From positions 1 to 42,184 of the forward strand of contig JBCDKT010000034.1 in the NCBI GenBank assembly GCA_038746285.1: a stretch of DNA of 42,184 bases. Reading direction: 5' to 3'. The translations under genes and the position numbers were made by a program. The notes under the pieces were generated by a model, which saw nothing but the letters and a program-made list of their open reading frames with translations, was not told the origin of the DNA and ran no database searches. This document shows, piece after piece, positions 11,031 to 38,083 of the stretch (position 1 is the first letter of the stretch; every line of letters starts with the position of its first letter). The stretch is from Bacteroidota bacterium. GTDB lineage: Bacteria; Bacteroidota; Rhodothermia; Rhodothermales; JANQRZ01.

Positions 11031-11226
11031 GGGGGAAAGGGCGGGTGGGCGAAAGGGAGAAAGGGGGAACGGGCGAAAGGGGGAACTTTTACAGCGTCGC
11101 CTTTCAACACTCGCCCACTCGCCCACTCGCCCACTCGCCCACTCGCCCACTCGCCCACTCGCCCACTCGCCCACTCGCCCACTCGCCCACTCGCCCACTC
11201 GCCCACTCGCCCACTCGCCCACTCGC
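11031..11226. repeat. paired inverted tandem arrays (8-bp units)
   Basis: Left array: seven degenerate 8-mers of the type GGGCGAAA (11031-11086). Spacer: about 22 bp (11087-11107). Right array: 14 perfect copies of CACTCGCC plus a partial copy (11108-11226), ending at the aspartate aminotransferase stop codon. The reverse complement of the right unit (GGGCGAGT in another phase) resembles the left unit, so the arms are inverted. The unit length is not a multiple of three, yet both strands stay open and give eight-residue peptide repeats; these are not genes. Confidence 0.85.
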
Positions 11227-19143: not shown

Positions 19144-19162
19144 GGCCGGGAGTTTTTCGGCG

Positions 19163-19295
19163 TGGATGGGAAGGAGGGCGAGGAGGGAATAAGCGTTGGT
19201 GCGAAGCGCGATGGCCTCGGTAGCTTTCTTGGCTTTGCATTCCACACCCTCCACACCCTCCACACCCTCCACACCCTCCACACCCTCCACACCCT
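19163..19295. repeat. paired inverted tandem arrays (9-bp units)
   Basis: Left array: three 9-mers of type AGGAGGGNN (19163-19189). Spacer: 52 bp (19190-19241). Right array: six perfect CCACACCCT copies (19242-19295). The right unit read on the other strand (GGAGGGTGT in another phase) resembles the left unit. The spacer stretch 19201-19243, containing CTCGGTAG, TTTCT and ATTCCA, is clearly related to the spacer of the element at 38 kb. It lies between pheT and the coiled-coil gene. Confidence 0.8.
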
Positions 19296-26255: not shown

Positions 26256-27445
26256 GCTCCCGGTTTCTCGCTTCTGGTTTCCCATTTCTGGTTTCTCGTC
26301 CTCTGCCCTCGGTCTGCTGTCCTCTGTCCTCCGTTCGCTGGAACACGGGCGAAGGCTTGCGCCGCCGCGAGGCCCCGGTCCGTCAGCGTCCAGCCGTCGT
26401 CCACCGGTTTGGCAAGTCCGCGGGCCGCGAGCGCGTCGAGGCCGGCGGCGACGCTCTCGGGCCGCGCTGTCATCGTCTCGAGGGTGGCGACGGGGTGTGG
26501 ACGCTGCGGCTCGGCCGGGTGCTGGAGGGCAAGGGTGTAGAGGTCTTCGAGGACGCCGATCTCGCGGAGGTTCGTCCGGTTGCGCCGGGCGCGGAGCCAC
26601 GCCGCCACCAGCCCCCGGCCGGGCGCGAAGAGCAGCGAGACGACGACGAGGGCACCGGCGAAGAGGACAATCGTCGGGCCGGTCGGGAGGCGGGCGGTCG
26701 TCGCGCTGAGGATGGCACCGCCGGCACCGGCGAGGGCACCGAAGAAGGCAGCGAGCGCCATCACCCCGCTGAGCCGGTCGGTCCACTGCCGGGCCGCGGC
26801 GGCGGGCGCGACGAGGATCGCGCTCATCAGCACCACGCCGACCGTCTGCAACCCGATCACGATTGCGACGACCAACAGCGTCGTCAGGACGATGTCGAGC
26901 CGCCGCATCGGAAAGCCGAGGGCCGCGCCAAATTGCTCATCGAAAGCGAGCAGCTTGAACTCTTTCCAGCACACGAGCGCAACGCCGAGCGCAACCACAC
27001 CGAGCGTCGCCATCACCACGAGATCGCTCGCGACGAGCGCCGCCGCCTGCCCGAACAAGAATGTATCGAGGCCTGCCTGATTCCCGCCCGGCAGCCGCTG
27101 CACCGAGACGAGAAGTACAAGCCCGAACCCGAAGAACACCGAGAGCACGAGGCCGAGCGCCGCGTCGTACGGAATCCGCGACCGGCGCACAACTGTCATC
27201 ACGGCGAGCGTCCCGACCCACCCCGCAAGCGCCGCCCCTACGACGAGCACGAGCGGGGCCTTGCTCCCGGTCAGCAGAAACGCGAGCGCGATTCCTGGCA
27301 GCGCCGCGTGGCTGATCGCGTCGCCGAGGAGCGACTGCCCCCGCAGCACGGCGTACGTCCCGAGCGACCCGCTCACGATCCCGAGCGTCGCCGCGCCGAG
27401 CGCGACGGTGCGGAGCGTGTAGTCGAAGAGGAGGTCGTGGAGCAC
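26252..27445 (-). CDS. troC: metal ABC transporter permease with winged-helix tail (TroC-like)
   Basis: A 397-residue ABC-3 family permease starting at a GTG (27445). It has the family segment QSLLGDAISHAALPGIALAF and conserved VGVVLMSAILVAPAAAARQW. The membrane part ends near residue 275. A soluble winged-helix-like tail follows (LREIGVLEDLYTLALQHP; LDALAARGLAKPVDDGW; TLTDRGLAAA). The final ~25 residues (about GGQRTADRGQRTRNQKWE onward) are encoded by a heptamer array (26263-26332) and look like accidental extension. It is the first permease of the Tro-like importer; together with TroD it probably forms the membrane channel. Confidence 0.8.
   Translation of the reverse strand: MLHDLLFDYTLRTVALGAATLGIVSGSLGTYAVLRGQSLLGDAISHAALPGIALAFLLTGSKAPLVLVVGAALAGWVGTLAVMTVVRRSRIPYDAALGLVLSVFFGFGLVLLVSVQRLPGGNQAGLDTFLFGQAAALVASDLVVMATLGVVALGVALVCWKEFKLLAFDEQFGAALGFPMRRLDIVLTTLLVVAIVIGLQTVGVVLMSAILVAPAAAARQWTDRLSGVMALAAFFGALAGAGGAILSATTARLPTGPTIVLFAGALVVVSLLFAPGRGLVAAWLRARRNRTNLREIGVLEDLYTLALQHPAEPQRPHPVATLETMTARPESVAAGLDALAARGLAKPVDDGWTLTDRGLAAAQAFARVPANGGQRTADRGQRTRNQKWETRSEKPGA
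26263..26332. repeat. single heptamer array inside the troC 3' end
   Basis: Ten imperfect 7-bp units of types GTTTCTC, GCTTCTG and GTCCTCT (26263-26332) on the plus strand. The troC frame reads through them in the other direction and stops at 26252-26254. No matching inverted arm is evident nearby, so this may be a one-sided relative of the paired elements elsewhere in the window. Confidence 0.75.
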
Positions 27446-27452
27446 GGGGGGC

Positions 27453-27487
27453 CGTGGTCAGTGGTGGGTGGTCAGTGGTTCTTGGTT
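27453..27487. repeat. heptamer array, left arm of the S23 cassette
   Basis: Five 7-bp units (cgtggtc, agtggtg, ggtggtc, agtggtt, cttggtt). The stop codon of the four-helix-bundle gene (27472-27474) lies inside the array, and the troC start codon is 8 nt to its left. It is the inverted counterpart of 27868-27902. Confidence 0.75.
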
Positions 27488-27843
27488 CGACCGATAGAGC
27501 GGAGGTAGGCGTTGAGCGTTGGGGCGAGGTCTTCGATGAGCGGGCGCAATGCCTCAACCTGATCCTTGGTGAGCAGGCTGCGCTTGTAGGCGCGGCGGAG
27601 GAAGAACTTGGTTTCGTAGAGCGAGCCGCGGGCGATCCGAACGAATCGCTTGTTGTCGGCGTAGGTGCCACGTCCGGCCCCTTCTGCGATGTTAGCCCCC
27701 ACGCTGTCGGCTGCCCGCACGATCTGCTGGCCCACGGTGCGCTTCGCAAATCCATCCCACGGTTTTACGACTTCCCACACCTCGTCCGCAAGCTGTTCTG
27801 CCATCTGAAACACCCGCAGATTCTCGAAGTCACTTTTAGCCAT
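27472..27843 (-). CDS. four-helix-bundle protein, S23/IVP family
   Basis: A 123-residue protein matching the four-helix-bundle family first known as S23, encoded in intervening sequences of 23S rRNA genes of some bacteria. It has the family features FENLRVFQMAEQLADEVW at the start, QIVRAADSVGANIAEGAG in the middle and ETKFFLRRAYKRSLL later. There is no rRNA gene here. Its biochemical role is not established; related four-helix bundles accompany retroelements (Avd). The gene sits between the ATPase and permease genes of a metal importer and is bordered on both sides by inverted heptamer arrays, which makes it look like an inserted cassette. Confidence 0.88.
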   Translation of the reverse strand: MAKSDFENLRVFQMAEQLADEVWEVVKPWDGFAKRTVGQQIVRAADSVGANIAEGAGRGTYADNKRFVRIARGSLYETKFFLRRAYKRSLLTKDQVEALRPLIEDLAPTLNAYLRSIGRTKNH

Positions 27844-27867
27844 AGCACAACTCTCGTCGGTGAAAAG

Positions 27868-27902
27868 CCACGGACAACTAACTACGGACCACAGACGAAC
27901 TC
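27868..27902. repeat. heptamer array, right arm of the S23 cassette
   Basis: Five 7-bp units (ccacgga, caactaa, ctacgga, ccacaga, cgaactc), about 24 bp upstream of the four-helix-bundle ATG. The stop codon of the importer ATPase (27878-27880) lies inside. Read on the opposite strand the units are of TCCGTGG/GTGGTCC type, hence inverted relative to the left arm (CGTGGTC). Confidence 0.7.
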
Positions 27903-37313: not shown

Positions 37314-37933
37314 GGCGCGAAGAACCGCTCTACGTCCTCGATCCGGTGCGCGTCAATGCCCCGGACGAGACACTCCGGCCGGACGAGCGGCAGCACGTCG
37401 TCAGGCACGAGCCGGTAGCGGGCGTTCTGCTCGACGAGCAACCCAGCGTCTTGCGCGGCGTCGAGGAGCGACGCGTAGCGCGCCTGCTCCGCGTCGAGCC
37501 GGTGCCACTTCTGCAGGCGAAGGCCCGGATGAACCCATACGGCCGGAACGTCCAGGGACCCGGCAAAAGCAAAAGCGGCTCGGAGCGACGCGTCCCACAG
37601 GGTGATGTCCTCGGGAAACGCGTGCTCGGCGACGCCGATGACAGCGGCGAGGGCAAGGTGCTCGTCGGCGATGTCGAGTGCGCCGCCCGGCAGCACCTTC
37701 GCCTCGAAGCCAAGCACGACAGGGACCTCGTGCCGCTTCCCCGCTTCCTGGACTTCCTCGGCGAAGGTACCGACATCGTACGTCGGCGCGCGGCGGATGT
37801 GTTCGAGGAAGACGACGCGGTCGAGGTCGCGCGCCGCGGCCCAGCGCACGTAGTCGTCGGCCGTCGGCGTGCCGTCGGTGTAGTGGGTGTGGCAGTGGAA
37901 GAGCACGCGGCCCTGGAAGAGGTCAGGCAGCAT
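37310..37933 (-). CDS. PHP-domain metal-dependent hydrolase
   Basis: A 207-residue PHP-domain protein with the N-terminal metal motif HCHTHYTDG (13-21), an FLEH segment, GFEAKVLPGG, a His in VWVHPG, and a terminal GIDAHR. PHP enzymes are phosphoesterases of small molecules or DNA; the substrate here is unknown. Its ATG is immediately followed upstream by the (GGAAGAGC)n array. It is likely the third gene of a cluster with PIG-L deacetylase and ATP-grasp ligase, separated from the latter by the array element. Confidence 0.8.
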   Translation of the reverse strand: MLPDLFQGRVLFHCHTHYTDGTPTADDYVRWAAARDLDRVVFLEHIRRAPTYDVGTFAEEVQEAGKRHEVPVVLGFEAKVLPGGALDIADEHLALAAVIGVAEHAFPEDITLWDASLRAAFAFAGSLDVPAVWVHPGLRLQKWHRLDAEQARYASLLDAAQDAGLLVEQNARYRLVPDDVLPLVRPECLVRGIDAHRIEDVERFFAP

Positions 37934-38079
37934 GGAAGAGCGGAAGAGCGGAAGAGCGGAAGAGCGGAAGAGCGGAAGAGCGGAAGCTAGGCGCGGAGCG
38001 CAACAGTCTCGGTAGTTTTCTCGGTTTTTATTCCATTCCCCCCATTCCCCCCATTCCCCCCATTCCCCCCATTCCTCCC
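37934..38079. repeat. paired tandem arrays (8- and 9-bp units)
   Basis: Left array: six perfect copies of GGAAGAGC (37934-37981) plus a partial one, touching the PHP-gene start codon. Spacer to about 38034, including the stretch 37990-38034 with CTCGGTAG, TTTTCTCGG and ATTCCA, which is closely related to the spacer at 19201-19243. Right array: four perfect ATTCCCCCC copies and one degenerate copy (38035-38079), ending 4 nt before the ATP-grasp stop codon. Purine-left, pyrimidine-right layout as at the other loci, although the two arms differ in unit length. Confidence 0.85.
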
Positions 38080-38083
38080 ATCC

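Follow-up and report, generated by a model that had tools for sequence, protein, structure and literature searches.

A small intergenic repeat with a strand-polar core and variable arms in a Rhodothermales genome

Results

The window analysed here, a single stretch of 42,184 nt, comes from a Rhodothermales bacterium related to Rubrivirga (its best named PheT matches share 59-60% identity) and carries on its + strand two copies of a short repeat that we call R1. Element 1 lies between pheT and the zapA region; a sequence-only reading of the same DNA had placed this stretch before the pheT-zapA arrays, a position that we correct here. Its core (19192..19241; 68.4 bits with the R1 model, and placed by the core alignment) follows a degenerate G-rich repeat of TTCGGCGTGGATGGGAAGGAGGGCGAGGAGGGAA (19156..19191), an arm type that recurs at other R1 copies, and precedes 6.1 units of TCCACACCC (19241..19295; TRF, 100% matches), the only strict array of its two arms. 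In element 2, the core (37984..38033; 60.5 bits) is set between 6.6 units of GGAAGAGC (37934..37986; TRF) and 5.4 units of CCATTCCCC (38033..38081; TRF). The claim that arrays flank both stretches is accordingly accurate for the copy at 38.0 kb, with strict arrays on both sides, and has to be qualified for the left arm at 19.2 kb.

Two further features of the window have a similar architecture. An element with a second core family occupies 11031..11226 on the + strand, comprising a G-rich arm (11031-11085), the 'core 2' sequence GGAACTTTTACAGCGTCGCCTTTC (11082-11105) and a right array of 14.9 units of CACTCGCC (11108-11226). On the - strand, 27446..27900 holds an S23/IVP four-helix-bundle gene with its arms (locus L034; gene 27472-27843; PF05635 match 27511-27825, 95 bits). 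The short-repeat arms flanking this gene are complementary, an architecture related to that of R1 in something that is not itself an R1 copy. Degenerate arrays alike in style, GGTTTCTCGCTTCT then GTCCTCTGCCCTC, are also found at 26262-26340, with no recognised core.

The two R1 stretches align without gaps over 19197-19235 and 37989-38027, with 30 of 39 positions identical (77%), in agreement with the earlier estimate by eye of about three quarters, and the sequence blocks that had been listed for them occur in order in both. The alignment score of 33 exceeds every one of 2,000 dinucleotide-preserving shuffles (mean 14.4, maximum 26), so the resemblance is not due to chance; no other stretch in the remainder of the window scores above 23.

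Searching the 4.08 Mb genome revealed a dispersed family. The inner motif CTCGGTAGNTTTCT, allowing at most one mismatch, occurs at 27 sites, of which 25 are clearly R1 cores; the reversed control gave 6. A 50-column R1 model built from 20 copies matched 115 sites at 20 bits or more, approximately 90 of them at 33 bits or more. The lowest-scoring of these matches are doubtful, because noise in other genomes reached 23 bits in one search and 30 bits in a larger one. Where the sequence-only reading had allowed for no further matches, or for matches without arrays, the profile search that it proposed returned some 90 strong matches, the majority adjoining tandem arrays. A contig end is no more than 200 bp away from 13 of 114 copies; the assembly seems to break at the arrays, which makes the array lengths and the copy number underestimates.

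The amplification is specific to this species: R1 found no convincing copy in 113 further genomes of the order, and its few weak matches there fall in apparent coding stretches. Likewise, a covariance model search of 400 kb each from the congener G001 and from G002 returned only noise, a degenerate exact core pattern had no match in other GTDB genomes or viral contigs, and Rfam holds no family for the R1 core.

The R1 copies are intergenic, with a G-rich left arm (48% G) and a C-rich right arm (53% C). The units vary among copies, with GGACGGA, GGGCGGAT, GGAATGGG, GGCGTGGAGGG and GGAAGAGC found on the left and CACTCCTCC, TCCCACAC, CACGCCCTC, GACCTCCC and CAACAGC on the right. A strict array, defined as at least 3.5 units, touches 79 of 111 copies, compared with 3.3% of sites picked at random from the same DNA. 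Strict arrays number 180 per Mb in the sampled regions of this genome, a figure raised by the picking of those regions around elements, against 22 in sampled G001 and 65 in sampled G002 DNA. The arms of a copy are not specifically complementary to each other and differ between copies; co-adaptation of the two arms as a hairpin was rejected, with a pairing of 15.5 for own arms and 14.8 for other pairings.

Arm units are common to 83% (right) and 54% (left) of core pairs with at least 46 of 50 positions identical, and to 9% (right) and 6% (left) of pairs with fewer than 37. This tracking of core identity indicates that arms and core are copied together and that the arms change afterwards. Array length also drops with core decay, through 76, 64, 48 and 40 nt. 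As a lead, with weaker support from copy pairs that are not independent of each other, the right arm seems to be retained for longer than the left. The earlier inference of a common origin is thus supported by some 90 strong copies of one conserved core with variable arms. Its corollary of later array growth captures the subsequent change in the arms and is incomplete in that the arms travel with the core.

Comparison with G001 and G002 revealed both empty and persisting sites. Element 2 with its arms (~37929-38083, ~155 bp) is absent from G001, where the adjacent genes lie 1-2 bp apart. Among the empty sites in G001 and G002, element 2 is gone together with its arms and the element at C4:5388 is nearly cleanly gone, 6 bp standing in place of 92; the empty sites seen had no recognisable target-site duplication. 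The empty site and the confinement of the amplification to one species are signs of recent R1 mobility. Elsewhere, G001 has a core-like motif at the sites corresponding to C66:3054 and C3:100095, on the same strand and with different arms (p = 0.0016-0.005), and at C4:75275, without arrays (p of ~0.02). As these p values are per region and come from 11 sites tested, persistence of the core at orthologous G001 sites is likely rather than proven.

R1 copies are strikingly uniform in their orientation. Across the 31 contigs with at least two copies, 92 of 94 share the prevailing strand of their contig; the highest number reached in 20,000 permutations was 83. The only two copies against the majority are at C13:261 (L121) and C28:45834 (L146). 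An origin of replication at C28 was considered for the reversed copy and rejected, as the genes of the region resemble, by eye, a type VI secretion cluster rather than origin genes. Gene direction was similarly rejected as the cause of the polarity, as the coding DNA beside the copies falls about equally on the two strands; the neighbouring gene orientations are ++ 22, -- 20, +- 10 and -+ 6. Polarity is equal in the youngest copies (25 of 25, above 60 bits) and the oldest (17 of 18), which argues that it arises at insertion. Core 2, with 6 genome copies within 3 mismatches and a seventh in the sampled DNA, shares the polarity of R1 in seven cases out of seven.

The 11 elements, from six contigs of this genome, that map to 400 kb of a single G001 contig (C16:1-400000; L303-L322) all fall on its + strand. 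In this DNA the canonical KOPS motif GGGNAGGG occurs 10 times on + and 50 times on -, and TCCCCT 95 times on + and 23 on - (AGGGGA 23:95), while the GC skew is weak. In the R1 genome itself, with the elements masked, GGGNAGGG is found 100 times on the element strand versus 183 on the other, and the skew of TCCCCT is present within genes whichever way they run. These skews put R1 on the C-rich strand, with KOPS-like motifs pointing the other way. On the strength of those motifs, and by analogy to other bacteria, the R1 core strand is probably the lagging strand, an assignment with weaker support than the polarity itself. GC skew in the R1 genome is near zero, the dnaA region of G002 showed no clean strand switch, and marker proteins and tRNAs were too few and too mixed to identify the leading strand. 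The G001 strand skews also indicate that KOPS-like polar motifs are present in the Rhodothermales.

The R1 genome encodes eleven S23/IVP genes, including the one inside the window. At 23 S23 loci in six Rhodothermales genomes (L028-L037, L329-L345), the flanks are complementary within a locus and differ between loci. Complementarity averages 29.8 within loci and 16.1 in other pairings, with 21.3 as the highest value under permutation, the own flank is the best partner in 20 of 23 cases, and no complementarity was found in the flanks 500 bp away. At one apparently orthologous site in the R1 genome, G001 and G002 (L032, L337, L339), with orthology judged by eye from a shared upstream coding end, the gene is kept and the arms differ. 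Moreover, the end of the S23 gene on C21 is the 3' half of an R1 core, and a C-rich arm comes next (p of 3e-4 per region, with 11 regions tested). This suggests, rather than shows, that R1 and S23 elements are related.

Discussion

Taken together, we consider it reasonably probable that R1 is the core of a small non-autonomous mobile element with fast-changing arms, whose insertion follows the direction of replication. In this model, an element of ~90-250 bp would consist of a G-rich short-repeat arm, the 50-nt core and a C-rich short-repeat arm, and each new copy would bring both arms and the core to a position between genes. At the replication fork, an RNA or single-stranded DNA intermediate would be copied in one orientation, both the intermediate and the fork as insertion site being our inference, with copying starting from the right (3') arm and the machinery supplied in trans. 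Following insertion, the arms would change quickly in length and unit, through slippage and replacement, and the core slowly. The greater constancy of the right arm would fit copying that starts there, and the core is consistent with being the functional part, as the sequence-only reading suggested. Counting against the model are the two copies that run counter to the majority and the lack of a recognised target-site duplication at the empty sites seen. The search for an enzyme also gave no candidate: no Y1 transposase was found, and the only PF00078 match in the genome is an ORF adjoining a Cas1-like sequence read by eye (RT-Cas1; C77:2632-3231, L039), and this fusion was all that was found when looking for a reverse transcriptase matching a group II intron or DGR.

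An alternative explanation for the polarity is that selection maintains the core as a polar signal of the chromosome, similar to KOPS or Chi but longer, read one way by a translocase or the fork, with its orientation imposed by function and the arrays as incidental slippage products. The almost complete polarity of R1, shared by both core families, parallels that of real polar motifs, and like KOPS and Chi signals R1 is strongly co-oriented with the chromosome axis, yet opposite to GGGNAGGG. Known signals of this kind are short and widespread in relatives, whereas R1 is 50 nt long and amplified in one species only. Furthermore, many R1 copies have decayed, and selective loss of wrong-way copies predicts a polarity that rises with age, where no rise is seen. 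Because the polarity is already complete in the youngest copies, we favour an insertion bias over later selection and consider a polar signal unlikely.

Slightly less likely again, in our view, is a MITE- or REP-like derivative of an ordinary DNA transposon, mobilised by an unrecognised transposase and oriented by single-stranded targets at the fork. IS200/IS605 elements, which favour the lagging-strand template, provide a precedent for such an orientation, and R1 is small, intergenic, present in high copy number and cleanly absent from a site in a congener. Against this, its ends are variable arrays in place of conserved terminal repeats, the stems in the core lack covariation support, and the assembly yielded no match to Y1 transposase (PF01797), although at 97% completeness this absence is not proof. 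The GCGC-nnn-GCGC stem, the T-rich tracts and the intergenic position of R1 could also be read as a structured regulatory RNA or a transcription terminator spread by duplication. We regard this as very improbable: the fractions of cells that pair, 0.94 and 0.87, are the same as the means after shuffling of columns, 0.935 and 0.869, the structured RNA core being rejected on this pairing and on the lack of covariation, the orientations of neighbouring genes are balanced, and Rfam has no matching family.

Within the mobile-element model, the nearest known kind to R1 is that of the small dispersed repeats (SDRs) of Nostoc, reportedly described by Elhai and colleagues in 2008 as very small, apparently mobile sequences with cores of 21-27 nt, and said to be often embedded in tandem arrays of ~7 nt units. 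The secondary structure of SDR4-6 is supported by compensatory changes. R1 resembles the SDRs in its very small size, many dispersed copies, apparent mobility and setting in short arrays, but differs in its 50-nt core, its G-rich left and C-rich right arms, its strict chromosome orientation and its host phylum, and unlike SDR4-6 it has no supported secondary structure. The SDRs have been mentioned as an unexplained case (PMC3116915).

Many bacteria carry intergenic arrays of 7-9 nt units whose origin is unexplained, and the GGGAATC arrays of Xanthomonas show no leading/lagging preference (PMC4692102). R1 arrays are like these and the cyanobacterial STRR arrays in being intergenic, built of 7-9 nt units and variable site by site between close relatives, and unlike them in that most flank a conserved core and that the cores are strand-polar. 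As with MITEs and with REP/REPIN sequences and their RAYT (PMC3116915), R1 is short, intergenic, non-autonomous and abundant. It differs from REP/REPIN in the variable array ends, the lack of a conserved terminal palindrome and the failure to find a Y1/RAYT gene in the assembly, and from MITEs in having no conserved terminal inverted repeats and no target duplication recognised at the sites seen. The S23 or IVS elements, known as 23S rRNA intervening sequences, for example in Coxiella (PMC4990558), have genes in this order with R1-style arms that are complementary; R1 itself has no ORF, its arms are not specifically complementary, and it occupies intergenic rather than rRNA sites.

That arms can be seen to travel with a core and afterwards to disappear or give way to others offers a concrete, testable model for intergenic arrays, and a strand polarity this close to complete strongly hints that insertion involves the replication fork. 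The locus-specific complementary arms around S23 genes point to a possible role for an orphan protein family. More tentatively, R1 and the S23 loci may belong to an undescribed class of mobile elements, in which a core or an S23 gene sits between inverted arms that are remade over time, with the non-coding members inserting in a single orientation relative to the fork. If true, S23 proteins, unexplained heptamer-type arrays and fork-polar insertion would be joined in one system. Core 2 is possibly a diverged relative of R1; members of its family (GGAACTTTTCCAGCGTCGCCTTTC) are set between G-rich and C-rich arms at C66:19814, C13:84012, C19:20988, C37:2417 and C53:14240.
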